22,918 nucleotides of DNA from positions 1 through 22,918 of the forward strand of contig SXKQ01000148.1 in assembly GCA_005778045.1 (NCBI GenBank). The letters are read 5' to 3'. Below the pieces are notes generated by a model. The model worked only from the letters and a program-made list of their open reading frames with translations. It was not told where the DNA came from and searched no databases. This DNA comes from Planctomycetia bacterium. Lineage in GTDB: Bacteria; Planctomycetota; UBA1135; GCA-002686595. A program made the position numbers and the translations under genes. Of this stretch, positions 6,057-22,278 are shown one piece after another (the first letter of the stretch is position 1; each line of letters opens with the position of its first letter).

Positions 6057-6094
6057 CGGCGGAGCCGCCGCAGCACGTGCGAGGCTCCACTCCT

Positions 6095-7741
6095 ATGAGG
6101 TCGTTGATGCTCCTTCGTCTCTCGCGCGCCACGCTTGCGCTGGCGCTCGCAACCCCCGTTGTCTTCTCCCAAGACCTGCCGTGCGGCTCCGACATCGGCT
6201 CGCGCCGCACCCCGGAAACCTCGCGCGGCCCAGCGCACCTGCTCGGCTCAGGGGCGACATCGTCGCCCTTCACGCCCCCGCTCGCGAGCGACATCCAGTT
6301 CGTCGTCAACTCCGGTGGCGGCCTCGACACGGGCTGCACCTTCCGCTCCGGAGGCCCGCTCCTGATCGACGTGCCGATCGACCGCTACCTCGGCCCCGTC
6401 GACGCCAACGGCTTCCTGATCGACGCCACTGCCATGCGCAACGCGGGGCTGCTCTCGGAGTTCGCCACGCTGATCCTGCCGGTGTTCGACATCGACAACC
6501 TCGCGGACGTCAAGCCGCCGGACCAGCCCGAGATCGACCGCGTCTCCCTCAACGACGCCGAGGTCGGGTTCCTCTCGGGTCTCAACCGCGAGTGGAAGCT
6601 CAACTCGTTCCAGATCCCGATCGAGCGCCTCAAGTTCCCGGCGGCCCCGGGGGTCGGAGGCGCGCGCCCCGCCCCGGCGCAGAACCGCATCCGCATCGAC
6701 ATCGACGTCGGCAACGAGCCCTCGGGCAACGAGCTGTGGTGCATGTCCGCCGACTGGGTGGCCATCTCGTTCAAGGCCATCTCGCCGGTGATCCTGATCC
6801 ACGGGAACAACAGCAACGGTGGCTTCTGGGAGCGGCAGGGCTTCACCGCCCGCCTCGCCCAAGGGCTGATCCCGTTCGACAACTCGATCTCGATGCCGAC
6901 ATCCACCGTCGCGATCAACTCCGTGCGCCTCCTTGGCCGCCTGCGGGAGATCACGGCCGGATTCGGGGTCGACAGCGTGCACCTCGTGTGCCACTCGAAG
7001 GGTGGCCTCGACACCCGGGCCTACCTGCAGAACTTCTACTTCGGCGAGCCGTTCCGGGTCCTGTCGGCCTCGACCTGTTCCTCGCCGCACAACGGCAGCG
7101 CCGGGGCCGACCTGCTCGTGGCGCAGGCCGTCGAGGCGGCACGCGTCGATGAGGTCGAGTTCTCAGGATTCCCGACCTTCACGCAGACGCTGGTCCAGGC
7201 GCTCGGCGTGGACGCCGGCACCCCCAATCTCACCACGCACTTCACCGCGCAGTTCAACGCGCAGAACGTGCCGGCGCTGCCGACGGACATCCTCTTCAAC
7301 ACGGTCGGAGGAGACGCGGACACCAACAACTCGCTGTCGATCGACACCGAGGCCGAGATCGCGGCCCTGCGCCCGGAGAGCGACGCGCTCTCGTTCATGC
7401 CGACCTTCGTCGCGACGACCGTGGTCAACCGCCTCTACCAGATCCTGCGCAGCACGAGCACCGTGCAGGTGCGGTACCGGATCGACACGGGGTTCTTCGG
7501 CGGGACGACGCTCGTGGCAGAGATCGTCAACGTGCCCACCCCGGCCCCCCTTGGGAACGACACGCTGGTCACCATCCCGAGCGCCATGGGCGCCGGCACC
7601 TTCGCAAGCCGCGTCACCAACACGGCGGTCTTCACCGGCGCCAACGGGCGCAACCACTCGAACATCGCGAACGGCGGCGTGGCGGACACGATCCTGCCGT
7701 GGATCCTGCAGGCCGAGCGCCAGAACGGGGACCTGAAGTGA
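6095..7741 (+). CDS. Secreted alpha/beta-hydrolase, lipase/esterase type
   Basis: 548 residues. The ATG at 6095 starts a typical signal peptide (Arg-Ser-Leu-rich core ending near VFSQ at 23-26); an ATG 18 bp upstream would only add six residues. Residues 30-220 form a region I do not recognise. The hydrolase core begins at VILIHGNNS (232-240, the oxyanion-loop His-Gly motif of lipases). The nucleophile elbow is CHSKGG with Ser301, and a His in GRNHSN (His521) is the likely catalytic His; the acid was not assigned. This pattern fits bacterial triacylglycerol lipases and PGAP1-like esterases. It probably cleaves ester bonds of lipids outside the cytoplasm. It is the first gene of a three-gene unit: its TGA is 29 bp from the start of the surface protein gene. 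Substrate is unknown. Confidence 0.85.
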   Translation: MRSLMLLRLSRATLALALATPVVFSQDLPCGSDIGSRRTPETSRGPAHLLGSGATSSPFTPPLASDIQFVVNSGGGLDTGCTFRSGGPLLIDVPIDRYLGPVDANGFLIDATAMRNAGLLSEFATLILPVFDIDNLADVKPPDQPEIDRVSLNDAEVGFLSGLNREWKLNSFQIPIERLKFPAAPGVGGARPAPAQNRIRIDIDVGNEPSGNELWCMSADWVAISFKAISPVILIHGNNSNGGFWERQGFTARLAQGLIPFDNSISMPTSTVAINSVRLLGRLREITAGFGVDSVHLVCHSKGGLDTRAYLQNFYFGEPFRVLSASTCSSPHNGSAGADLLVAQAVEAARVDEVEFSGFPTFTQTLVQALGVDAGTPNLTTHFTAQFNAQNVPALPTDILFNTVGGDADTNNSLSIDTEAEIAALRPESDALSFMPTFVATTVVNRLYQILRSTSTVQVRYRIDTGFFGGTTLVAEIVNVPTPAPLGNDTLVTIPSAMGAGTFASRVTNTAVFTGANGRNHSNIANGGVADTILPWILQAERQNGDLK

Positions 7742-7770: not shown

Positions 7771-9747
7771 ATGAAGTTCATCCTCGCCCTGCTCGCCCTC
7801 GCCCCATTCGCCACTCCCGCGAGCGCCCAAGGCACCGCGCCGACGCTGCAGCTCAGCCTGCAGAACCAGCTCGTGGCAGTGGACCGTCTCGCGCCGGGAT
7901 CGACCACGGCCACGGCCGTCTTTCCGGTCGATGCGCTCGGCACGCAGCTGGTGCTCGACATCAGCACCTCGATCTCGAACCTGCAGACCTCGATCTCCGT
8001 CCCCGGCGGGCAGACGATCACGCAAGCCAACGTCGCGACCTTCGGCGGGAGCTTCTCGACCTTCGAGGGCGCGCTCGCTGCAGACGAGCCGACGTTCTCG
8101 GCGCTCGCCCGTCCGGGCTTCCACCACCTGTACGTGTTCAACGCGCCGGCCGCCGGTTCGTACACAGTGAACCTCGACGGCGGTGCGGGCCTCGCGCAGG
8201 AGATCGCGGTGCTCTCGACCCTGATCTCCTCGAGCTCGCTCGGCGCGGCGGTGTTCACCACGGCCGACACGGTCATCGTGGGCGCTCCGGCGGTCATCGG
8301 GTACGCGCTGTTCAACGGCGCGACCCCTGTCACGGGCGCGACCGTCACCGCCAGCCTGCTCGCCGACAGCGGCGAGAGCGCCAGCGTGACGCTGCTCGAC
8401 GATGGCGCGGGGACCGATGTCGCGGCAGCCGACGGCATCTACTCGGGCAGCTACGTGCCGCTCGCCGCCGGGACCTTCGGGATCAGCGCCGTCGCCACGG
8501 GCACCACGCCCCAGACGGGCGCCTTCACGCGCGGTGGCGGCGCGCAGTTCCTCGCCGTGCCCCCGAGCGCGCTGATCGCGGGGACGTTCACGGAAGTGGG
8601 CATCGACACCAACGGCAACAGCCTGTTCGACCTGCTGCGCATCTCGATCGCGCTCAACATCGTCAACGCCGGCGACTACGTGACGCAGGTGACGCTCCGA
8701 CCGGCCGGAGGCGAAGCGATCGTCGCGGGCGCCAACGCCACGTTGGCCGTCGGCGCGTCGTCCGTGCCCGTGGACTTCCCGGCGCTCGCCTTCGTCACCG
8801 AAGGCAGCGGCGGCCCCTACGCGGTCGAGCGCGTCGAAGTCACCTTCGTCGATCCGGTGCTCGGACCGGTCCCTGCGGACAACGCCAGCAACCTCGGCAA
8901 CACGCAGGCCTACACCCTGACGCAGTTCGAGCGCGACCCGATCGTGCTCACGGGCGTGATCGAGGATCAGGGCTTCGACGACAATGGCAACGGCCAGTTC
9001 GACCGCTTCCGCGTGCGCGTCGGCGTCGACCTGCTCGAGGACGGCTTCTACAGCTGGTCCTTCAAGCTCGCGCGCGCCACCGGCGAGGAGATCGTGTTCG
9101 CGGCGAACTCGGCGACCTTCGGCATCAACAACCTCGTGCCGGGCGCGCAGCTGCTCGAGGTGGAGTTCGACGGGCTCGCCATCGGCCAGACCGGCGCCAA
9201 CGGGCCGTTCCGCATCACCGACCTGCTGATCGAGGGGCCCGGCGGGGCCAACCTCGTGCGCACGGAGGTCGGACAGACGGGCGCCTACACCTCGCCGCAG
9301 TTCGAGGGCGGCTTCGTGGCCAACACGCCGCCGACCATCTCGCTCGAGGGCGCGACCTGCGGCAGCGAGGTCTTGGTCACGTTCCCCAATGAGCTGGTGC
9401 TGGTGGTGACGGCCACCGACGCGGATGCCGGCGACGACGTCACCCTGACGATCTCGGGCCTGCCCGCGGGCGCGGAGCTCACGCCGAACCCGCCGCAGAG
9501 TGGCAACCCGGCGCGCTTTACCGTGCGCTGGAAGCCGAGTGGCGTCGCGCGCGCGGACGTCACCATCACCGCCGTCGATTCGAGCGACCTGACCTCGACC
9601 TGCACGCTCACGCTGCGCGCCAAGGGCGAAGGCTGCAACTGCAGCGTCCCTGCGGGCGAGGAGGGTGCGACGTGGCAGCTGCCGCTCGCGCTCGCCGTGC
9701 TCGTCGTGCTCGGGTTCTACGCGCGGCGCTCCCTGCGCGTTGGCTAG
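7771..9747 (+). CDS. Surface protein with C-terminal MYXO-CTERM-like sorting tail
   Basis: 658 residues. The ATG at 7771 gives a good signal peptide (MKFILALLAL to ASAQ) and has GGAG nine bases upstream; an ATG at 7741 overlapping the lipase stop would put ten polar residues before it. Residues about 165-245 resemble the segment of choice-of-anchor X proteins (LLDDGAGTDVAAADGIYSG). Two related modules start with Asp/Asn-rich loops (GIDTNGNSLFD near 277 and GFDDNGNGQFD near 401), and a cadherin/Ig-like domain spans about 515-620. The end is tripartite: EGCNCS (Cys622 and Cys624), a hydrophobic segment (about 637-650) and an Arg-containing terminus. This is the architecture of C-terminal sorting signals. 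It should be exported, held in the membrane by the tail and processed by the protease encoded next to it. Domain names are by eye. Confidence 0.82.
   Translation: MKFILALLALAPFATPASAQGTAPTLQLSLQNQLVAVDRLAPGSTTATAVFPVDALGTQLVLDISTSISNLQTSISVPGGQTITQANVATFGGSFSTFEGALAADEPTFSALARPGFHHLYVFNAPAAGSYTVNLDGGAGLAQEIAVLSTLISSSSLGAAVFTTADTVIVGAPAVIGYALFNGATPVTGATVTASLLADSGESASVTLLDDGAGTDVAAADGIYSGSYVPLAAGTFGISAVATGTTPQTGAFTRGGGAQFLAVPPSALIAGTFTEVGIDTNGNSLFDLLRISIALNIVNAGDYVTQVTLRPAGGEAIVAGANATLAVGASSVPVDFPALAFVTEGSGGPYAVERVEVTFVDPVLGPVPADNASNLGNTQAYTLTQFERDPIVLTGVIEDQGFDDNGNGQFDRFRVRVGVDLLEDGFYSWSFKLARATGEEIVFAANSATFGINNLVPGAQLLEVEFDGLAIGQTGANGPFRITDLLIEGPGGANLVRTEVGQTGAYTSPQFEGGFVANTPPTISLEGATCGSEVLVTFPNELVLVVTATDADAGDDVTLTISGLPAGAELTPNPPQSGNPARFTVRWKPSGVARADVTITAVDSSDLTSTCTLTLRAKGEGCNCSVPAGEEGATWQLPLALAVLVVLGFYARRSLRVG
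9625..9744 (+). other. Encoded C-terminal sorting signal (Cys-x-Cys, transmembrane, Arg cluster)
   Basis: Residues 619-658 of the surface protein. The order is G-E-G-C-N-C-S, a short polar linker, a hydrophobic helix (LPLALAVLVVLGFY) and ARRSLR. MYXO-CTERM signals have an invariant Cys motif of this kind just outside the helix and are processed by CPBP-family proteases (myxosortases). The match is to the general pattern; no profile score was computed. Confidence 0.7.
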
Positions 9748-10342
9748 CCGAGCCAAGCTCGACCTTCTCGAGAGCGTCGCCGCGATCACGCTGGTCGCGG
9801 CGACGCTCGACTTGTTTCCGTCGGCGTGGGTCCCGCTCGCGCTGGGCCTGCCCCTCGCCTCGAGCTGGCTGCGAGGCGAGCCGCCCGCAGCGCTGGTCGG
9901 ACCGCTCGAGCCCTGGCGAGCTTTGCGACAGGCGCTGCTCGTGCTCGCCGTGACGCTGCCGCTCTGGGGCCTTGGCACTGTCCTCGCCCTGCGCGGCGGC
10001 TGGGTCTTCCCGGCGCTCGGAACGACCGGCGGCGCGACGCCCATCGCGCTCGTGACCCTGCCGCTCGTCGAGGAGTTCTTCTTTCGCGGCTACCTGCAGC
10101 CGCGGCTCGAGCGCGTGTGGCCCGAGCGACGCACGCTGCTCGGTGCGCAGGTGAGCCGGGGCTGGCTGGTCGCCGCGCTGGCGTTCGGCCTCGCTCACCT
10201 GCAGCTCGGTTCGCTCGCGGCCGCAAGCCGCGTCGTACCGGGACTCGTGCTCGGCCACTGTCGCGCGGCGACCGGCTCGATCTGGGCCGGCTGGCTCGTG
10301 CACGTCGCTTACAACCTCGCCGGCTCGCTGTTCGCTGGCTGA
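9740..10342 (+). CDS. CPBP-family (Rce1-like) glutamic intramembrane protease, candidate sorting enzyme
   Basis: 200 residues from a TTG at 9740 that overlaps the surface protein gene by 8 bp. An upstream GTG at 9665 is in frame but would add Cys/Arg/Ser-rich residues that only mirror the sorting tail in another frame. All three motifs of the CPBP family are present: EExxxR (Glu111, Glu112, Arg116), FxxxH (Phe149, His153) and HxxxN (His188, Asn192), set in hydrophobic segments. The family includes CAAX prenyl proteases and the myxosortases that cleave Cys-containing C-terminal sorting signals. Being translationally coupled to a gene ending in just such a signal makes a sorting role the best guess. 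The protein is short, with only one or two helices before the core. Its 3' end overlaps the convergent Lgt-like gene by 34 bp. Confidence 0.85.
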   Translation: MASRAKLDLLESVAAITLVAATLDLFPSAWVPLALGLPLASSWLRGEPPAALVGPLEPWRALRQALLVLAVTLPLWGLGTVLALRGGWVFPALGTTGGATPIALVTLPLVEEFFFRGYLQPRLERVWPERRTLLGAQVSRGWLVAALAFGLAHLQLGSLAAASRVVPGLVLGHCRAATGSIWAGWLVHVAYNLAGSLFAG

Positions 10343-11067
10343 CGGACGCGGGCGACCGAGAGCGCCACGAGCGCGCCGAGACAGCTCCACTGCGCGAACG
10401 TGAGGCCGCCCCAGCGCGGGTCGACATCCGCCGCCGCGATCGCGCCGCTCGCGATCGCCGCAAGCGCGTCGTCACCGTCGATGCGCAGGAAGTCGAGCAG
10501 GAAGCGCGCGGGTGCGTAGGCGAGCACGAAGGTCGCGAGCACCGCACCATCCGACCTCCGGCGCTGGAAGGCACGCACGCACAGCGCGAGCACGGGCAGG
10601 GCGAGCAGGGCCTCGTACAGTCCGAGGTCGTGGCGCAGGCCATCCGGGTAGGCGCAGGCCAGCACGAACTCGCTGCGCGCTCCGGGGTGATCGTGGGCGA
10701 GAAAGCACCCAAGGCGCGCGAGCGGCCACGCGGCCGCGAGCCCGAGCAGCACGAGCTCCGCCGCTGCGGCGAAGCTCCTGCGCGCGAGTCGCGCGAACAC
10801 CAGCGTCCCGAGCGCACCCCCGAGGAACCCGCCCGCGGACGACAGTCCGTACGTGAGTGAGAGGAGCGCCACCCACGGACGCTCGCCGAGCCCGTCGGGC
10901 GAGTGGAACAGCAGCGCGGCAAGGTGCGCGCCGATGAGACCGCTGCCGAGTGCCATCGAGGCCGCCACGAGCCCCACCGAGGCCCGTTCGCCGCGCGCGC
11001 ACGCGGCCCACGCGCTCGTCGCGAGCCCGAGCGCCGCAGCAGCCGTGGAGGTGACGACGAAGCTCAT
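10309..11067 (-). CDS. Prolipoprotein diacylglyceryl transferase (Lgt) family protein, divergent
   Basis: 252 residues, polytopic membrane protein. The Lgt signature is recognisable: RLGCFLAHDHPG (118-129), LYE (150-152), RFLLDFLR (188-195) and GLTFAQW (221-227). Lgt moves diacylglycerol from phosphatidylglycerol to the lipobox Cys. By motif alignment with E. coli Lgt, Arg143, Gly154 and Arg239 are kept (Arg118, Gly129, Arg188), Glu151 and Glu243 become Asp (126, 192), Asn146 becomes Cys121, and the His of the HGG motif becomes Ala78 (SSAGGF). It may be a functional variant or a paralogue with another substrate. It is convergent with and overlaps the CPBP protease gene, and is divergent from the sigma factor gene 64 bp away. 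With no other lgt in view, I leave the symbol blank. Confidence 0.75.
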   Translation of the reverse strand: MSFVVTSTAAAALGLATSAWAACARGERASVGLVAASMALGSGLIGAHLAALLFHSPDGLGERPWVALLSLTYGLSSAGGFLGGALGTLVFARLARRSFAAAAELVLLGLAAAWPLARLGCFLAHDHPGARSEFVLACAYPDGLRHDLGLYEALLALPVLALCVRAFQRRRSDGAVLATFVLAYAPARFLLDFLRIDGDDALAAIASGAIAAADVDPRWGGLTFAQWSCLGALVALSVARVRQPANSEPARL

Positions 11068-11113
11068 CGCAGGACCGTGGGCCCCATCCTACGGCGACGC
11101 CGCGGGGGACTGG

Positions 11114-11119
11114 TATGCT
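11114..11119 (+). promoter_or_regulatory. Candidate -10 element for the ECF sigma operon
   Basis: TATGCT lies 12 bp before the ATG at 11132, so a transcript from it would have almost no leader. This fits the absence of a Shine-Dalgarno sequence there. No convincing -35 is seen. The same hexamer occurs in the gap before nuoA. Confidence 0.3.
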
Positions 11120-11131
11120 CGGCAGCTAGCG

Positions 11132-11764
11132 ATGGAAGCGGCCTCGCAGGAACTCGAGCGACTGGCGCAGCGCGCGGCGGCGGGCGATCGCGGGGCCGTC
11201 GACGTGCTCATCGCGCGCTACCTGCCGGAGCTGCACGCCTTCGTCCGCCTGCGCGCGGGCCCGGTGGTGCGTGCGCGCGAATCGAGCTCGGACATCGTGC
11301 AGTCCGTGTGCCGCGAGGCGCTCGAGCACATCGACCGCTTCCAGTTCCCGAGCGAGTCCGCGTTCGAGCAGTGGCACTGCACGACCGCACTGCGCAAGAT
11401 CCTCAACCGCCACGACTACTGGCTCGCGCAGAAGCGCGACGCGCAGCGCGAGATCGGGCTCGGCGCGAACGCGAGCGGCTCGTTCGACGAAGGCGCCCTG
11501 CTCGACTGCGACGGGCGCTTCTCCTCACCGAGCCACGGCGCCGTGCGGCGCGAGGAGCTCGAGCGCATCGAGCGCGCCTTCGAGCAGATGCCCGAGGAGT
11601 ACCGCGAGGTGATCACGCTCGCGCACTTGGTCGGGCTCTCGCGCGCCGAGATCGCGCAGCAGCTTGGCAAGAGCGAGGGAGCCGTGCGCGTGCTGCTGCA
11701 CCGCGCGCTCGCGCGCATGTCGTCGATCCTGAGCAAACCTGGCGCGGTCGAAGAGAAACAGTGA
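11132..11764 (+). CDS. ECF RNA polymerase sigma factor, planctomycete type
   Basis: 210 residues. Region 2 is at about 20-95 (IARYLPELHAFVRLRAG, then SSDIVQSVCREALEHIDRF, where region 2.2 binds core polymerase). Region 4 is at about 145-200: MPEEYREVITLAHLVGLSRA with the helix-turn-helix EIAQQLGKSEGAVRVLLHRA that reads the -35 element. The pattern matches the ECF-type sigma factors that are numerous in planctomycetes. The ATG at 11132 is the first that leaves a normal N-terminus; the frame extends upstream only as shadow of the Lgt-like gene. The beta-CASP gene starts 3 bp after its stop, so the two are co-transcribed. No anti-sigma gene is adjacent on this strand, though a STAS/HATPase pair lies 1.9 kb downstream in opposite orientation. 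Confidence 0.88.
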   Translation: MEAASQELERLAQRAAAGDRGAVDVLIARYLPELHAFVRLRAGPVVRARESSSDIVQSVCREALEHIDRFQFPSESAFEQWHCTTALRKILNRHDYWLAQKRDAQREIGLGANASGSFDEGALLDCDGRFSSPSHGAVRREELERIERAFEQMPEEYREVITLAHLVGLSRAEIAQQLGKSEGAVRVLLHRALARMSSILSKPGAVEEKQ

Positions 11765-11767
11765 TCC

Positions 11768-13267
11768 ATGGAGATCGAGTTCCACGGCGCGACGGACGGG
11801 ACCACGGGCAGCTGCCACGTGCTGCGCGCGGGCGGGCGGCAGGTGCTGCTCGAGTGCGGGCTCTTTCAGGGCCACCGCGAGACTACCTACAAGCGCAACT
11901 CGCAGTTCCGCTTCGACCCGCGCGCGATCGACGCGGTGATCCTCTCGCACGCGCACATCGACCACTCCGGACGCCTGCCCATGCTCGTGCGCGGCGGCTT
12001 CAAGGGTCCGATCCACTCGACCGGCGCGACGGTCGACCTCGCCGAGCCGATGCTGCTCGACAGCGCCAGCATCCAGCTCAAGGACGCCGAGTTCCTCAAC
12101 AAGCGTCGCGTGATGGACAAGGTGCGCGCGCGGCGCGAGCGTCGCGAGGAGCGCTGCGAGGCCCGCCACGCGCTGGCGCACTTCCACACCCACGACGACG
12201 CCCCGGCGCTCGCGGTCTCCAACCCGCCCAAGCGCGAGGTGCTGCCGCTGTACCTCGAGGAGGACGTGCGCGACACGCTGCCCTTGTTCGTCCCCCACCG
12301 CTGGGGCGACTGGTTTCAGATCGGCCCGTCCCTGCGCGTGCGGCTGCACGACGCCGGGCACATCCTCGGCGCCTCGTGGGTCGAGCTCGAGGCTCGCGAG
12401 CGCGGCAAGACGGTGCGAGTCGTGTTCTCTGGTGACTACGGGCGCCCGCAGCCGATCCTGCGCGATCCCGTGCCGCTCGCACCCGCCGACATCGTGATCT
12501 GCGAGAGCACCTACGGCGACCGCTGCCATCCACCGGTCGACGACACCGAGGCGCAGCTCTCGCTCGCCGTCGAGCGGCTCCACAAGCGTCGTCGCGGCAA
12601 GCTGCTCATCCCGGCCTTCGCCGTGGGCCGAACGCAGCACATCCTGTACGCACTCTCGCGCATCTTCGAGCGCAAGAAGATCGCGGACATTCCGGTGTAC
12701 GTGGACAGCCCGCTCGCCAAGCGCGCGACGGAGATCGTCTACAAGCACCGCGAGTGCTTCGACGACGACGCGCTGGCGCGGCTGCGCAAGGCCGAGTCGG
12801 GCGAGCATCGCCTCAAGGTGCACTTCACCCAGACCGTCGACGACAGCAAGGCGCTCAATCAGGCCAAGGGCCCGATGGTGGTCGTCTCGGCCTCGGGGAT
12901 GATGGAGTCGGGCCGCATCCTGCACCACCTCGCATGGGCGGTCGGCAGCCCGGAAACCGAAGTCGCGGTGGTCGGCTACCAAGCGCAAGGCACGCTCGGC
13001 CGCCGGCTCGTGGAAGGCGCGCTCGAGGTCAACATCCTCGGCATGCTGCGTACCGTGCGCGCGCGTGTGACCGTGATGAACGGCTTCTCCGCTCACGCCG
13101 ACCGCGATGAGCTGCTGCAGACGCTGCTCCCCATCGCACCGCAGTGCAAGTCGCTATTTCTCGTGCACGGCGAGAACGACCAGCGCCTGCCGCTCGCCCG
13201 CACCCTCGGCCAGCGCGGCTTCGCGCGCGTCGAGTGCCCGCGCAACGCGGCCGTGTGGAAGCTGTGA
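11768..13267 (+). CDS. Beta-CASP metallo-beta-lactamase-fold RNA hydrolase
   Basis: 499 residues, cytoplasmic. The metal-binding motifs of the metallo-beta-lactamase fold are HAHIDH (61-66), His198 in AGHILG and Asp223 in SGDYGR. The beta-CASP motifs follow: ESTYGDR (246-252, motif A), the His in SGRILHHL of motif B and His467 in LVHGEND (motif C), with SAHADRDE (441-448) near the end. This is the CPSF73/YSH1-like group, bacterial members of which are RNA endo- or exonucleases. The length is typical apart from a charged insert at about 112-155 (Arg/Glu/His-rich). It starts 3 bp after the sigma factor and its last codons overlap the JAMM gene by 4 bp (GTGA), indicating translational coupling. 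An RNA substrate is inferred from the family. Confidence 0.92.
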   Translation: MEIEFHGATDGTTGSCHVLRAGGRQVLLECGLFQGHRETTYKRNSQFRFDPRAIDAVILSHAHIDHSGRLPMLVRGGFKGPIHSTGATVDLAEPMLLDSASIQLKDAEFLNKRRVMDKVRARRERREERCEARHALAHFHTHDDAPALAVSNPPKREVLPLYLEEDVRDTLPLFVPHRWGDWFQIGPSLRVRLHDAGHILGASWVELEARERGKTVRVVFSGDYGRPQPILRDPVPLAPADIVICESTYGDRCHPPVDDTEAQLSLAVERLHKRRRGKLLIPAFAVGRTQHILYALSRIFERKKIADIPVYVDSPLAKRATEIVYKHRECFDDDALARLRKAESGEHRLKVHFTQTVDDSKALNQAKGPMVVVSASGMMESGRILHHLAWAVGSPETEVAVVGYQAQGTLGRRLVEGALEVNILGMLRTVRARVTVMNGFSAHADRDELLQTLLPIAPQCKSLFLVHGENDQRLPLARTLGQRGFARVECPRNAAVWKL

Positions 13268-16572: not shown

Positions 16573-16631
16573 AGCTGTGCGTGTGCCGCATGACTTCCGT
16601 GACAGCTGTCGAGTACCTTTGCGCGGCGAAC

Positions 16632-17651
16632 ATGACGCTCCGCACGCCGCTCGCCCTCGTCTCTCTCGTGGCGCTGTCCGCGACGCTCGTCGCGGCGGGC
16701 GTGGCGCTGCGGGACCGTGCGCCGTGGCCTCTCCGGCCCCCGGCCCCGGTACCGGACGGCCGACCCGACAAGCTCGCTCACGCCAGCTCCATCGCGTGCG
16801 CGGAGTGCCACGCCGCGCAGGTCGAGGAGTGGGCCGGCACGACCCACGCGCTCGCGTGGGAGAACGAGCCGTACCAGGAGGACCTCGAAGGTCGCAAGAA
16901 GGCCGAGAGCTGCCACGGCTGCCACGCGCCGGTCGCGCTGCACGGCGCCGACGATGCGCTGCTCGCGGGCAAGCCCGAGGCGCGCAAGGACGCGCGGCAC
17001 CTCGGTGTCTCGTGCGAGAGCTGTCACCTCGCGACGGATGGTGCCCTGCTGGGGCCGACGGGCGCCGCCACGGACAAGCACGCGACGCGCAAGGGCGCGA
17101 GCTTCTCGGGCTCGGGATCGAATGCGCTGTGCGCGAGCTGCCATCGCACCACGGTGGGGCCGGTGATCGGCCTCGCGCGCGATTTCGAGCAGTCCAAGGC
17201 CGCGGAGGAGGGTGCGACCTGCGTCAGCTGCCACATGGCGCCGCGCGCGGAGGTCTCGCACGACGGCGGCATGCGCGTCGTGCGCAGCCACGCACTGCAG
17301 ACACCGCGAGACCCCTACTTCCTCGCGCTCGGCTTCGAGCTCGAGCTCGAGCTCGACCCGCTCGGCGCGCAACTGCGGGTGCGCAACCGCGCTGGACATC
17401 GCATTCCGGGCCTGATCGGCCGCGAGATCCAGTTCGTGGCGACCGCCCTCGATGCCTCGGGCTCCGCGCTCGGGGCCGAGACGCTCGCGCTCACCACCGA
17501 GAGCTACCTGCCCGTCGACGAAGATGCGGTGCTCGCGCTCCCAGTGCGCACGGCGCGCGTGCGCGTGCTCGGTCGCCACCACGACCCGCGCCTCGCGAAG
17601 CCCGTGACCTTCCTCGAGTGCGAGCTCGAGCCCGACCGAGAGCAGCGCTAG
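16632..17651 (+). CDS. Exported five-heme cytochrome c
   Basis: 339 residues from the ATG at 16632, chosen because it begins an uncleaved or cleaved signal segment (MTLRTPLALVSLVALSATLV). Five CxxCH heme sites are present: CAECH 56-60, CHGCH 94-98, CESCH 128-132, CASCH 167-171 and CVSCH 197-201. The region resembles the cytochrome c554 / multiheme group found in planctomycetes and delta-proteobacteria, with the motif THALAW (71-76) offering a further His. The last 110 residues form a beta-rich part with NRAGHRIPG, seen in other multiheme proteins of this group. It probably transfers electrons outside the cytoplasmic membrane; donor and acceptor are unknown. The vWA gene follows after 17 bp. 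The bases around 17336-17355 are a short GAGCTC repeat encoding alternating Glu and Leu. Confidence 0.88.
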   Translation: MTLRTPLALVSLVALSATLVAAGVALRDRAPWPLRPPAPVPDGRPDKLAHASSIACAECHAAQVEEWAGTTHALAWENEPYQEDLEGRKKAESCHGCHAPVALHGADDALLAGKPEARKDARHLGVSCESCHLATDGALLGPTGAATDKHATRKGASFSGSGSNALCASCHRTTVGPVIGLARDFEQSKAAEEGATCVSCHMAPRAEVSHDGGMRVVRSHALQTPRDPYFLALGFELELELDPLGAQLRVRNRAGHRIPGLIGREIQFVATALDASGSALGAETLALTTESYLPVDEDAVLALPVRTARVRVLGRHHDPRLAKPVTFLECELEPDREQR

Positions 17652-17668
17652 CGCGCAGCCCCGCTCCC

Positions 17669-19213
17669 GTGTCGCACCTTCTCTGCTCGCTGCTCCTCCT
17701 CATCGGCCTCGCCGGCGCGGCGCGCTCACAGTCGGGCAGCGAGGATTCCGTAGCGCGCGCGCAGGCGTGGCTCGCGCGCGCGAGCCGGCCGACGCTCGCG
17801 CTGTCCGACGACGAGGTGCTGCAGCTCGAGCGCTGGCTCGACGACCTGCGGCTCGTGCAGGTGATCCAGCCGGAGCGACGCACGACCGTGTTCGCGCTGC
17901 TGCTCGACCTGTCCGCGCTCGATCCCGGGGAGAGCCCGCCGCCGGCACTGCAGACGCCGTGGCAGCGCATGCGCGTCGGGCGCTCCGCCTTCGCCTCGCT
18001 CGGGCCGGCCCTCGACCTCTCGAAGGACGGGGCGACCCAGCGCTGGCTCGCGCGCGAGGTGCTCGCCCGCGGCGAGAGCGCGGCCCGCGCCCGGCGCATC
18101 GAGGCGCTCGAGTGCCTCGCGGGCCGTCGCGAGCAGGAGACACTCTCGGGGCTGCTGCACTGCGCCAGCGCTGCGGACGCGCAGGTGCGCGAGCTCGCGA
18201 TGCGCGCGCTCGTCGGCTGGCCGGACGACGGCGTGCACCTGTTCATGCTCGCGCAACTCGCGAAAAACGTGCGCCAGCCGGGCTGGGTCAACGTTGCGCT
18301 CGTGCGCCAGCACTTCCAGTCGCTCGAGCGGCTCGGGACGGGTCGCGCGGCGCAGGCCGTGGTGGCCTTCGTGCGTCCGGCGCTGGTCTCGACGAACTGG
18401 CGCGACACCGTGCGCGCGCTGCCCTTGCTCGCGCGCATCGACGACACCCTCGCCGTGCCATTGCTGATCGAGAGCCTCGGCTTGTGGGTCGCGCGGCGCG
18501 AGGCCGGCGGCGGCTCGCGGCGGGTCGAGGCGGAGTTCGTGGCCGAGCTGCAGCGTCGCTCGGGGCGCACCATGGGCCCCTTCCCGGAGCGCTGGTCCCT
18601 GTGGTGGCGCGCCCGCAGCTCCGGCACGCTGGTCGATGGTCCCGGGGAGGTCGAGGCTCCGACCTCACGGGCGGGCTTCTACGGCCTGCGCCCGGAGACC
18701 GACCGGGTCACGTTCCTGATCGACGCCTCGGGCTCCATGAATCAGGCCGTGTCCGAGGGCGTCACGCGCTACGCCCAGGCGCTCGAGCAACTCGTCGGCT
18801 TCCTCGGGGGGCTCGAGCCGTGGGCGCGCTTCCGAGTGGTGCTGTTCGACACCAACCTGCGCGTCTGGAAGGACAGCCTGCAGCCCGCTAACCGCAGCTC
18901 GATCGAGGCCGCGGAGCGCTGGGTGGCCTACCAGCGCCCGGACGGAGGCACCTACCTGCGCCCCGGCGTGGAGACTTGCCTCAAGGTCGGATTGGACGGA
19001 CGAATCGACCTCAAGGCCCTCGAGGAGGACACGGTCATCGTGCTGTGCGACGGCGAGACAGCCGAGGGTCGCGGCTGGGTGTGGCCCTGGTGGCGGGAGG
19101 TGGCTGAGGAATCCTGCGTGCGCTTCCACTGCGTGCAGCTCGGCGGAGGCGGCAACGGCACGCTCGAGGCGCTGGCCGAGGTCTCCGGGGGCAAGTTCGT
19201 ACGCGTCCCCTAA
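17669..19213 (+). CDS. Secreted von Willebrand factor A protein with HEAT-like region
   Basis: 514 residues from a GTG at 17669, the start that directly gives a signal peptide (SHLLCSLLLLIGLAGAARSQ). Residues about 130-300 are a run of amphipathic helices with HEAT-like character (for example QVRELAMRALVGWP, and TLAVPLLIESLGLW). The vWA domain starts near 345 with the complete MIDAS motif DASGSM (Asp352, Ser354, Ser356), a metal-dependent adhesion site, and goes on with TVIVLCDGETAEG, the third MIDAS segment. It should act outside the cytoplasmic membrane in protein-protein binding. The cytochrome gene lies 17 bp upstream, so the two may work together. The function is not known. Confidence 0.85.
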   Translation: MSHLLCSLLLLIGLAGAARSQSGSEDSVARAQAWLARASRPTLALSDDEVLQLERWLDDLRLVQVIQPERRTTVFALLLDLSALDPGESPPPALQTPWQRMRVGRSAFASLGPALDLSKDGATQRWLAREVLARGESAARARRIEALECLAGRREQETLSGLLHCASAADAQVRELAMRALVGWPDDGVHLFMLAQLAKNVRQPGWVNVALVRQHFQSLERLGTGRAAQAVVAFVRPALVSTNWRDTVRALPLLARIDDTLAVPLLIESLGLWVARREAGGGSRRVEAEFVAELQRRSGRTMGPFPERWSLWWRARSSGTLVDGPGEVEAPTSRAGFYGLRPETDRVTFLIDASGSMNQAVSEGVTRYAQALEQLVGFLGGLEPWARFRVVLFDTNLRVWKDSLQPANRSSIEAAERWVAYQRPDGGTYLRPGVETCLKVGLDGRIDLKALEEDTVIVLCDGETAEGRGWVWPWWREVAEESCVRFHCVQLGGGGNGTLEALAEVSGGKFVRVP

Positions 19214-19491
19214 CCGCTCGGCGCGGGGCCGCGGACCTCGCGCCCGCGAGCGCGAGCGCGAAGCGTCCCGGCAATTCCATCGGCCCGGGCGCGCCGCTAT
19301 GCTTTCGGCCCCGAGGTATCGACGGCAGAGGCCCGAGTGGACCTTCCGCGGTCGGTTCTTCCCACAGCCCCATACCCCGCCCTGACCGGCGTCCGCAGGC
19401 CTCCCCCCCAAGGCCAAGGCGATCGGTACGGGTGCACCCCCGCGAGCGCAGAGCCCACCGCTGGTGGCGGCCGCGCGCCCGCGCAGAAGCG
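19214..19491 (+). other. Leader/promoter region of the nuo operon
   Basis: These 278 bp hold a GC-rich inverted repeat after the vWA stop (CTCGC 19237-19241 / GCGAG 19246-19250) that may help end upstream transcription, and TATGCT at 19298-19303 as a -10 candidate. The remaining 190 bp to nuoA contain only Arg/Pro-rich shadow frames. No riboswitch or other structure is recognised. Confidence 0.4.
19298..19303 (+). promoter_or_regulatory. Candidate -10 element for the nuo operon
   Basis: TATGCT follows one of the few AT-richer patches in the gap (GCAATTCCAT, 19271-19280). It is the same hexamer found before the sigma factor gene. The -35 region (TTCCAT at 17 bp) is far from consensus, and the leader would be about 180 nt. 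Confidence 0.3.
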
Positions 19492-19866
19492 ATGCTCCAG
19501 AACTACGCCCCGATCCTGATCCTCGCGCTGGCCGTCGCGGGGTTCGCGATCGCGAACCTGATCATCTCAGACGTGCTCGGCAAGAAGCGCCGCGCCATCG
19601 GCAAGGCCGACGCCTACGAGTCGGGCATGGATCCACAGGGCAGCGCGCGCGTGCGCCTGTCGATCCACTTTTACCTCATCGCGGTGCTGTTCATCCTGTT
19701 CGACGTCGAGTCGATCTTCCTGATCCCGTGGGCCGCCACGGTGCGCTCGCTCTCCGCACAGGGTCTGGGACCAGTGATGTTCTTCGAGGTGCTGGCCTTC
19801 GTCGGCGTGCTCGCCGTGGGCCTCGCCTATGTCTGGCGCAAGGGAGGTCTCGAATGGGATCGCTGA
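19492..19866 (+). CDS. nuoA: NADH:quinone oxidoreductase subunit A
   Basis: 124 residues, membrane arm of complex I. Three transmembrane helices are visible (about 7-27, 62-82 and 93-115). The conserved loop [20 protein letters not shown] with the invariant Glu-Ser-Gly and the helix [20 protein letters not shown] are diagnostic. The ATG at 19492 gives the usual length; an earlier in-frame GTG adds only Arg/Trp-rich residues. It is the first gene of the operon and its last 13 bp overlap nuoB. Confidence 0.96.
19841..19847 (+). promoter_or_regulatory. Ribosome binding site of nuoB
   Basis: AGGGAGG inside the end of nuoA lies 6 bp before the ATG at 19854 and fixes that start, which overlaps nuoA by 13 bp. 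Confidence 0.75.
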
Positions 19867-20519
19867 AGCCTGTCGGTCCGGAGAGCAACGAGCAGCAAGG
19901 CTCGGGCTTCTTCGCGACGCGCGCGGATTTTCTGATCAACTGGGGCCGCAAGAACAGCCTGTGGCCGATGCCCTTGGGCCTCTCGTGCTGCGGCATCGAG
20001 CTCATGGGCCTGCTCGGGCCCAAGTTCGACCTCGCGCGCTTCGGCGCCGAGGCCGCGCGCTTCACGCCGCGCCAGTGCGACCTCCTGATCGTCGCCGGCA
20101 CGCTGACGTGGAAGATGGCGCAGGCCGCGCGCACGATCTACGACCAGATGCCCGACCCGAAGTGGGTCGTGGCCATGGGCGTGTGCTCGAGTTCGGGCGG
20201 CATGTACGACAGCTACTCGGTCGTGCAGGGCATCGACTCGATCATGCCCGTCGACTTGTACGTGCCCGGCTGCCCGCCGCGCCCGGACGCGGTGATCGAC
20301 GCGGTGCTCAAGCTGCAGAAGAAGATCGAGCGCGAGGACCCGCTCGGCCGCCTCCTCGGCCCGGCGACCGCGCCGCGCCCCGAGGAGGGCACCGGCAAGC
20401 TCCTGTTCCAGCCCAACCAAGGGCTCCCGAAGGGCGCTTGGGACAAGCACGCCCACGATCCCAAGTCGCGCATGCCGCTCTCCGACCCGCTGCCGCGCAA
20501 GACGGAGGTCAAGCCGTGA
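19854..20519 (+). CDS. nuoB: NADH:quinone oxidoreductase subunit B
   Basis: 221 residues. It holds iron-sulfur cluster N2, the last cluster before quinone. All four ligands are present: the tandem Cys45-Cys46 (GLSCCGIEL), Cys111 (GVCSSSGG) and Cys140 (VPGCPPRPD). The protein is longer than most NuoB because of a C-terminal tail of about 45 residues (from about 175 on), hydrophilic and Pro/Lys-rich with [19 protein letters not shown]. The start is set by a strong Shine-Dalgarno site. It overlaps nuoC by 4 bp (GTGA). Confidence 0.97.
20504..20508 (+). promoter_or_regulatory. Ribosome binding site of nuoC
   Basis: GGAGG lies 7 bp before the GTG at 20516. It supports the GTG start that overlaps the nuoB stop. 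Confidence 0.7.
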
Positions 20520-21049
20520 GCGAGGCCATCGCCAACGCCGCGAATACCGCGGCCGCGCCGCGCTTCGTCGCCGCGCTCGGGGCGCTCCCCCACTGCATCT
20601 CGCAGTCGCCGGACGGACCGGTGATCGAGGTCGACCTCGCGAACCTGCACGTCGTGCTGGCGGCACTGCGCGACCGCGCGGGCTTCGAGATGTGCAGCTT
20701 CGTAACGTGCATCGACCACTATCCGCAGGAGCCGCGCTTCGTGCTGCACCACCAGCTGCTCTCGCTCGCGCACGACGACCGCGTGCGCGTGCGCTGTGTG
20801 CTGCCCGGCGAGAGCGCGCCCACCTGCACGGACCTGTGGCCGGGCGCGAACTACATGGAGCGCGAGTGCTTCGACATGTTCGGCGTGCGCTTCGAGGGCC
20901 ACCCCGACCTGCGCCGCTTGCTGATGCCCGAGGGCTACGACCACTACCCGCTCCGCAAGGAGTTCCCGCACCAAGGCATCGAACCCGATCGCCTGTACCG
21001 CGAGTGGGACCGCGCGCGTCGCGCGAGCTGGACGGAGGACGCCCAATGA
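20516..21049 (+). CDS. nuoC: NADH:quinone oxidoreductase subunit C (30 kDa type)
   Basis: 177 residues, peripheral arm of complex I. The family signature [20 protein letters not shown] (about 118-137) is followed by [17 protein letters not shown]. The N-terminal 20 residues are Ala/Asn-rich and probably disordered. It is a separate protein here and is not fused to NuoD, unlike in E. coli. It starts with GTG overlapping nuoB and ends in an ATGA overlap with nuoD. Confidence 0.96.
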
Positions 21050-22278
21050 CGCTCACGAAGCAGGTCTTCGAGTACGTGCCCGCGCCGCCCCAGGGCGACG
21101 ACCCGCTGCACGGCGAGCTCTTGACGCTCAACATGGGGCCGCAGCACCCGGCGACCCACGGCGTGCTGCGCATCGTCGTCACGCTCGACGGCGAGCGCAT
21201 CGTCGAGTGCGATCCCGTGGTCGGCTACCTCCACCGCGGCAAGGAGAAGAGCGCCGAGTCGCTCGGCTGGCACAAGTTCTTCCCGCACACCGACCGCCTC
21301 GACTACGTGCAGCCGCTGATGAACAACGTCGGCTACGCGCTCGCGATCGAAAGGCTCGCCGGCCTCGAGGCACCGCCGCGCGCCCAAGTGATCCGCGTGC
21401 TCCTGATGGAGCTCTCGCGCATCATGGGGCACCTGATCTACCTCGGCACCCAGTCGATCGACCTCGGTGCCGTGACGATCTTCTTCTACGCCTTCAAGGA
21501 GCGCGAGAAGCTGTACGAGATCGTCGACGCCTACACCGGGCACCGCATGAACAACACCTACGTCCGCATCGGCGGGGTGTACGCGGACGTCGACGAGAAG
21601 GTCGAGCGCATCATCGAGGAGTTCCTCGTCGAGTTCCCCCAGGGCCTCGACGACATGGACAAGCTCTTGACGCGCAACCGCATCTGGAACGACCGCAATC
21701 GCGGCATCGGCGTGATCTCGCGCGAGGATGCACTCGCGATGTCGCTCACGGGCCCGGTGCTGCGCGGCTCGGGCGTGGAGTGGGACCTGCGCCGCGCGCA
21801 GCCCTACTGCGGCTACGAGAGCTACGACTTCGAGGTGCCGACGGGCGCGAGCGGCGACTGCTACGACCGCTACCTCGTGCGCCTCGAGGAGATGCGCCAG
21901 AGCTGCCGCATCGTGCGCCAGGCCCTCGATCGCCTCAAGACGATCAAAGGCGACGTGCTCGCCGAGGACCGGCGCTTCGTGCTGCCGCCCAAGGACCTCG
22001 TGCAAAAGTCGATGGAAGAACTGATCTTCCAGTTCAAGGTCGTGACCGACCTGCGCCTACCGAAGGGCCAGAGCTACCGCGGCATCGAGTCGTCGAAGGG
22101 CGAGCTCGGCTTCTTCGTGGCGAGCGACGGCAGCTCCAAGCCGCTGCGCTGCCACATCCGCGCGCCGGGCCTGATGAACATTCAGGCGCTTCCGATGCTG
22201 GCCAAGGGCCGGCTGTTCTCCGACATGGTCTCCCTGATCGGTTCCATGGACTTCGTCATGGGTGAGGTGGATCGCTGA
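21046..22278 (+). CDS. nuoD: NADH:quinone oxidoreductase subunit D (49 kDa type)
   Basis: 410 residues, the subunit that lines the quinone-binding cavity with NuoB. Diagnostic stretches are LNMGPQHPATHGVLRIV (28-44, with the quinone-site His-Gly loop), GYLHRGKEKSAE, and ESSKGELGFFVASDGS near the end. The length is typical. It starts in a 4-bp overlap with nuoC and its last base is shared with the nuoE start (TGATG), so the genes are translationally coupled. Confidence 0.97.
   Translation: MTLTKQVFEYVPAPPQGDDPLHGELLTLNMGPQHPATHGVLRIVVTLDGERIVECDPVVGYLHRGKEKSAESLGWHKFFPHTDRLDYVQPLMNNVGYALAIERLAGLEAPPRAQVIRVLLMELSRIMGHLIYLGTQSIDLGAVTIFFYAFKEREKLYEIVDAYTGHRMNNTYVRIGGVYADVDEKVERIIEEFLVEFPQGLDDMDKLLTRNRIWNDRNRGIGVISREDALAMSLTGPVLRGSGVEWDLRRAQPYCGYESYDFEVPTGASGDCYDRYLVRLEEMRQSCRIVRQALDRLKTIKGDVLAEDRRFVLPPKDLVQKSMEELIFQFKVVTDLRLPKGQSYRGIESSKGELGFFVASDGSSKPLRCHIRAPGLMNIQALPMLAKGRLFSDMVSLIGSMDFVMGEVDR

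Follow-up and report, generated by a model that had tools for sequence, protein, structure and literature searches.

The locus

The 22,918-nucleotide contig SXKQ01000148.1 of a lake-dwelling Planctomycetia bacterium (assembly GCA_005778045.1), analysed here over its whole length and referred to as the window, contains three overlapping genes that encode a secreted protein with a cysteine-containing C-terminal sorting tail (the target), a CPBP-type intramembrane protease, and a divergent paralogue of the prolipoprotein diacylglyceryl transferase Lgt (Table 1). The target and protease genes overlap by 8 bp, and the 3' ends of the convergent protease and Lgt genes overlap by 34 bp. We are confident that the target and the protease are a sorting pair, and on balance we favor the view that all three genes constitute a dedicated C-terminal lipid-anchoring cassette. 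A preliminary description of this DNA dealt with the first two genes and took the lineage to be planctomycetal, which is borne out by near-identical contigs from the uncultured planctomycete Erken-D4_bin-1070. The third gene, which lay outside the range of that description, is in our opinion the more important part.

Table 1. Positions of the genes and features discussed (window coordinates unless a locus is named)
Feature	Coordinates	Strand	Remarks
Target, secreted 658-residue protein	7771..9747	+	ATG at 7771, stop 9745-9747; NF041940, TIGR03901, homologue and tail alignment
Sorting tail, GEGCNCS / hydrophobic helix / ARRSLRVG	9625..9744	+	Residues 619-658 (last 40)
CPBP (Rce1-like) intramembrane glutamic protease, 200 residues, myxosortase-like	9740..10342	+	TTG start, stop 10340-10342
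Divergent Lgt paralogue (clade M), 252 residues, proposed tail-cysteine lipid transferase	10309..11067	-	Convergent with protease gene
Secreted alpha/beta-hydrolase-like open reading frame, start uncertain	6077..7741	+	Weak sub-cut-off Abhydrolase/Palm_thioest matches; synteny with G001
ECF-type sigma factor, then beta-CASP metallo-hydrolase	10853-13267	+	Sigma factor gene begins, as judged by eye, near 11126 and diverges from the Lgt gene
VWA-domain protein	16577-19213	+	Weak match to marine sortase-target model (33 bits, cut-off 552)
NADH dehydrogenase subunit genes (20 kDa, 30 kDa, 49 kDa)	19464-22278	+	
lgt2-CPBP loci	L018:6424-7868, L022:8869-10330, L032:3359-5043, L039:8914-10327, L075:7733-9335		Also L021, L027, L031

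The target and its protease

As the preliminary description had pointed out, the target ends in a GCNC motif, a hydrophobic helix and the residues ARRSLR. Its N-terminus, judged by eye, resembles a signal peptide, and residues 206-242 form a choice-of-anchor X domain (NF041940, 37 bits, cut-off 25). The tail has the MYXO-CTERM layout, i.e., a Cys signature, a helix and an Arg-rich extreme C-terminus, and scores 18.9 bits against the corresponding model TIGR03901 (cut-off 20). Five of the seven target homologues found have kept this layout (P0075-P0079), and two lack the tail (P0080 and P0081). With scores of 20.9, 24.8, 18.9, 28.3, and 22.3 bits, four of the five tailed homologues exceed the cut-off, P0075 being a near-self row that is 96% identical to the window target. 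The Cys-x-Cys is conserved in all six tailed rows, the window target included. The JDVT-CTERM model (NF033191, cut-off 27) gave no match in the window target at E values up to 10, and P0077 alone among the homologues matched it, at 12.1 bits.

In the nearest genome, G001, which is 91% complete and whose target is 96% identical to that of the window, a six-frame scan with TIGR03901 gave a top match of 26.8 bits and a next match of 13.9. No second MYXO-CTERM tail above the cut-off was found there, the six weak matches being read as internal or as not tails. This fits a system with one substrate, as far as can be seen in a 91%-complete genome, and agrees with the single-substrate pair proposed earlier.

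All six protease residues named in the preliminary description (E111, E112, R116, H153, H188, and N192) are present. In an alignment of 33 relatives five of them are invariant and H153 is conserved in at least 90%. The protein is a member of PF02517 (CPBP / Rce1-like; 67.8 bits, cut-off 22.4). In fold searches, Foldseek reaches Rce1 weakly and VIA-align more clearly; the sequence search against PDB gave no match, and no relative of the protease was found in the viral contigs searched. The enzyme is not classed here as a myxosortase, because its score against the Mrt_core model NF040914 (72.3 bits) is under the cut-off of 100. Each of the named Mrt families is likewise missed (score/cut-off: MrtP 76.4/250, MrtC 67.8/195, MrtJ 63.9/75, MrtX 61.7/180, MrtZ 45.4/325, and MrtS 35.0/130), and CPBP models outside the Mrt group score about 35 or less. 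The Mrt models are also top-scoring for five orthologues (P0002, P0003, P0004, P0006, and P0008), yet again below the cut-offs, with Mrt_core at 67-69. In a tree of 107 columns the position of the protease is not resolved, but it falls outside a 64-row group that contains the myxobacterial proteases. By sequence comparison, the protease is thus myxosortase-like, outside the named Mrt families, and not assignable as a member of any of them.

The earlier notion that a tail of MYXO-CTERM type is encoded beside a protease that probably sorts it is borne out. In the profile comparison most of the tailed homologues reach the MYXO-CTERM cut-off and the window target stays just below it, and the protease is under all Mrt cut-offs. 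A new class of protease had also been suggested. The enzyme does stand outside every named family, but its short length is no argument for a new class and is ruled out as one, since the MrtC and MrtS models have only 221 and 170 positions, respectively.

The Lgt paralogue

The convergent gene encodes a protein that belongs to the Lgt family (PF01790, 80.6 bits, cut-off 24.9) but stays under the cut-off of TIGR00544, the equivalog model for the housekeeping lgt (46 bits against 118.9). E. coli Lgt is by far its best match in fold. We refer to the divergent group to which it belongs as clade M. The Lgt tree, which was quick and had no bootstrap, was built from 36 homologues, out of 120 listed and 207 found in all, and from 10 of the 30 canonical loci of planctomycetes; one duplicate and pieces shorter than 170 residues, including a partial copy from G170, were omitted. 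The alignment behind the clade-M searches had 31 rows. A search of plasmids gave no match to the window Lgt at an E value of 1e-5. G001 carries a canonical lgt as well, and according to the available part of a 2026 study two lgt genes occur in about 1300 genomes (PMC13251419).

The essential residues of E. coli Lgt include R143, G154, and R239 (PMC4728403 and PMC13251419, each in part), and H103, also essential, is the proposed site for the lipobox peptide (PMC4728403, in part). Among 44 aligned clade-M rows, 36 of which came from the search with the window's own Lgt paralogue, R143, G154, Y235, R239, and R246 (E. coli numbering) are present in every row, and every row has D in place of E151 and E243 and C in place of N146. 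The H103 site is occupied by Y in four rows, F in six and other residues in 34, so that H or Y occurs in 4/44, compared with 55/57 of the other Lgts (eight Mrt-adjacent lgt2 proteins, set apart, have H or Y in 4/8). Distant Lgts may carry Y, W or F at H103 and C at N146, as stated in the accessible part of PMC13251419. The window protein has A at the H103 site and C at N146, and thus neither H103 (or Y, W, F) nor N146. The change at the H103 site is suggestive of an altered peptide site, short of proof, and the clade-M residue pattern fits an enzyme with the same lipid chemistry and a different acceptor peptide. In a MYXO-type tail, the cysteine is on the opposite side of the helix relative to the lipobox.

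Two clade-M proteins have additional domains: P0168 is fused to LspA (PF01252), and P0160 to a response-regulator receiver domain (PF00072). In L191:3736-6222 (+), from a member of the Myxococcaceae with eight MYXO-CTERM matches (G157), one open reading frame combines a PEMT/ICMT-like methyltransferase domain with an Lgt domain. When CAAX proteins are processed in eukaryotes, ICMT acts third.

Linkage and decay

The ten window genes that were compared occur in the same order in G001, split over two contigs that share 561 bp at their ends (98.9% identity). One of them (C449) carries the protease (residues 44-200) together with the Lgt paralogue, as in the window. A close intact protease was found in G001 alone among 154 genomes of the order, and any protease match at an E value of 0.001 in 24 of the 154, mostly weak; conserved adjacency across the order is accordingly rejected. 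Conservation, which the preliminary description put forward as a check, holds for the tail (five of seven homologues) and for the pair in G001 and is thin in the wider order.

Beyond the species, four of the eight near protease homologues (53-73% identity; the near-self rows P0001 and P0082 excluded) share both longest-contig size and source with a homologue of the Lgt paralogue among the listed matches, namely P0002, P0003, P0007, and P0008 with P0086, P0084, P0087, and P0091, on contigs of 3657, 2496, 6186, and 8667 bp. The remaining four have no Lgt homologue of equal contig size. Among 8599 other pairs in the listed matches, one has equal size, without a shared source. The four pairs therefore appear to sit on shared contigs, as read from equal sizes and not from contig sequence. 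The protease homologue P0004 likewise equals the target homologue P0079 in longest-contig size.

In G012, which is of the same genus as G001, the locus is recognizable by its sigma factor (79%), beta-CASP protein (88%) and large upstream gene (57%). Within its 16 kb no match to the target or the upstream hydrolase was found, the search for the target being confined to this locus. At the syntenic place (L344:7249-7943) there are a protease remnant with stops and a 30-residue Lgt remnant. The single Lgt-family match of this genome is away from the locus and has a canonical-like score (160 bits). Joint loss would be expected if the three genes work together; one deletion followed by decay would give the same picture.

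The hydrolase-like open reading frame that ends 29 bp upstream of the target gene possibly shares a transcription unit with it.

A separate linkage of Lgt and CPBP genes

In 8 of 80 loci found by protease similarity, G001's own aside, an Lgt gene is directly followed by an adjoining CPBP gene in the same orientation. Four of these lgt2 loci were read by eye; all four have an ileS-like gene upstream and L032 has an lspA-like gene. Five of the eight adjacent proteases were scored, and all five are above the Mrt_core cut-off (108-126 bits). In the tree, the lgt2-type Lgts are not part of clade M. MYXO-CTERM matches at an E value of 0.01 are absent from seven of the eight genomes, with one weak match in G164, and a mechanical tail finder gave no convincing tail beside these loci. 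As judged from the tree and the model scores, lgt2-CPBP is an independent Lgt-myxosortase linkage, separate from clade M.

Clade M in other genomes

Assigned by score and not by tree, clade M is present in 79 of 140 Myxococcota genomes and in 4 of 392 planctomycete genomes (239-293 bits, the next match being 134). In the Myxococcota it accompanies both parts of the sorting system: MYXO-CTERM was found in 77/79 genomes with clade M and in 40/61 without it (p 3e-7), and Mrt_core above the cut-off in 73/79 and 35/61, respectively (p 1.3e-6), these p values being uncorrected for kinship or genome completeness. Two of the calls, both full-length but scoring 145 and 152 bits (G202 and G231), are doubtful; when they are dropped, MYXO-CTERM stands at 75/77 against 42/63, with p values of 8e-7 for MYXO-CTERM and 4e-6 for Mrt_core. 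In one locus (L312:2739-6866, G184) a clade-M lgt lies some 50 bp from the gene for a protein that ends in GCNCRQ, a helix and RRRRA, and the two genes are convergent, like in the window. The Mrt match of G184 is on a different contig.

Discussion

A route by which the three gene products would act together can be outlined, and in its substrate pairing, lipidation, order of steps, identity of the lipid and final location it is what we infer from sequence and models. The target would be exported by Sec, and its C-terminal helix would hold it in the inner membrane so that the GCNC motif faces outward. There the clade-M Lgt paralogue may lipidate a cysteine of the motif from outside, the lipid probably being diacylglyceryl donated by phosphatidylglycerol. 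After lipidation, the myxosortase-like CPBP protease would cut on the helix side of the cysteine, and the target would end up held by a lipid at its new C-terminal end.

The closest published parallel is the MYXO-CTERM system of M. xanthus, as presented in the available parts of a 2025 myxosortase paper. MrtX cleaves MYXO-CTERM and needs its cysteines, and cleavage also takes place in E. coli; lipidation is the authors' proposal, with an Lgt-like enzyme as their leading guess, and the acyltransferase of the pathway is stated there to be unidentified (PMC11980579). The two systems are alike in the Cys tail, helix and Arg end, in the CPBP motifs, and in the proposed lipidation before cleavage. 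However, M. xanthus has 35 MYXO-CTERM proteins and a lipidating enzyme that is yet to be identified, whereas in the window one tail is seen, the genes are adjacent, and an Lgt paralogue is among them (PMC11980579, in part). A dedicated pair is not new in kind, as the same parts of that paper, citing Haft 2024, describe MrtJ, a CPBP sorting protease, as having a single JDVT-CTERM protein for its neighbor and target. That system is reported from beta- and gamma-proteobacteria and comprises just two genes (PMC11980579). The JDVT model is not matched by the window tail.

Two better known pathways are related in logic. The Lgt-LspA pathway also has a cysteine beside a membrane helix, an Lgt-fold enzyme, and then an intramembrane protease. 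In the window, by contrast, the order is inverted, with the cysteine before the helix, the H103 site is changed, and the protease is a glutamic CPBP enzyme. LspA is an aspartic protease. Rce1 in CAAX processing shares the protease fold family and the principle of a cysteine that is lipidated and then cut behind; its substrates are prenylated CAAX proteins, whereas the window protein is exported and is encoded together with a relative of Lgt.

We lean toward the cassette because a tail, a catalytically complete CPBP protease and an Lgt-family protein are encoded by three overlapping genes in the window and G001; because protease-Lgt pairs apparently share contigs beyond the species; because the G012 locus has lost the target while its protease and Lgt genes decayed; because clade M co-occurs with MYXO-CTERM and Mrt_core in Myxococcota; because clade M keeps the lipid-site residues while the H103 site is changed; because lgt2 abuts CPBP genes elsewhere, as a separate case; and because MrtX cleaves MYXO-CTERM in M. 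xanthus, for which an Lgt-like lipidating step has been proposed.

A rather unlikely alternative, but the one that survives best, is that the target-protease pair is real and the Lgt paralogue a mere neighbor serving N-terminal lipoproteins, with the tail lipidated by the housekeeping Lgt or never. A number of observations weigh in this direction. Cleavage of MYXO-CTERM by MrtX takes place in E. coli with no partner added, according to the accessible part of PMC11980579; the fusion of P0168 to LspA points to ordinary lipoproteins; and G001 has a canonical lgt as well. In the Myxococcota lists no clade-M match adjoins an Mrt match, and clade-M matches are lacking in 34 of the 107 Myxococcota genomes that carry both Mrt and MYXO-CTERM, including some with 45-47 tails. 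Other observations speak against the cassette. Among the first 29 genomes, a clade-M Lgt was in the tree for 6 of the 17 with MYXO-CTERM, and G176 has a clade-M Lgt but no MYXO-CTERM match. MYXO-type tails lie near clade M in 4 of 46 loci (two being one lineage) where about 1.8 would be expected, a rough count made with a home-made model of five homologues and 10 tails from the loci, of which three or more did not resemble true tails. The neighbors in these 46 Myxococcota loci, read by eye and without a family scan, show no sorting theme. In the three other planctomycetes with clade M there is no protease within 6, 20, and 18 kb of flank. The confinement of the G012 target search to the locus, the reading of contig sharing from sizes, the uncorrected p values, and the origin of most clade-M rows from a single query also count against the cassette. 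The replacement of N146, which is essential in E. coli Lgt, by C might be added, but it is not telling, because distant Lgts outside clade M usually have C there too. Against the idea of a mere neighbor, in turn, stand the gene overlap, the apparent sharing of contigs at 53-73% protease identity, the decay of the G012 locus, and a peptide site that changed while the lipid site was kept.

It is also conceivable, but quite improbable, that the protease adjoins the target by chance and has an unrelated substrate, the tail being a plain membrane anchor. Its scores below all Mrt cut-offs and its place in the tree would agree with this; the 8-bp overlap, the conserved Cys-x-Cys, the fact that Mrt models score best, the equal contig size of P0004 and P0079, and the decayed protease gene at the G012 locus, from which the target is absent, all argue the other way. 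Highly improbable is attachment to the tail of something other than diacylglycerol, be it another lipid or to another acceptor residue: the changes at E151, E243, and N146 in clade M and the other donors suggested for unusual Lgts without R143 and R239 (PMC13251419, in part) would allow it, but R143, R239, Y235, and R246 are kept and the fold best matches E. coli Lgt.

No paper was found that contains both 'prolipoprotein diacylglyceryl transferase' and 'MYXO-CTERM', and 'Lgt' and 'myxosortase' were found together in PMC11980579 only; as the subscription literature was mostly outside the search, a prior mention is possible. With the cassette as the favored explanation, we tentatively propose, with somewhat less assurance, that several phyla may run a C-terminal mirror image of the Lgt-LspA pathway, in which a specialized Lgt (clade M and, separately, lgt2) would work with a myxosortase-type CPBP protease, and of which the window would be a minimal, one-substrate version that names the lipid transferase. 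The Lgt paralogue beside the target and the protease is, in any case, a testable candidate for the lipidating enzyme of MYXO-CTERM-type systems, and the cluster, the recurring myxobacterial clade, and the peptide-site changes point to a specific gene and to a small cassette that can be reconstituted.

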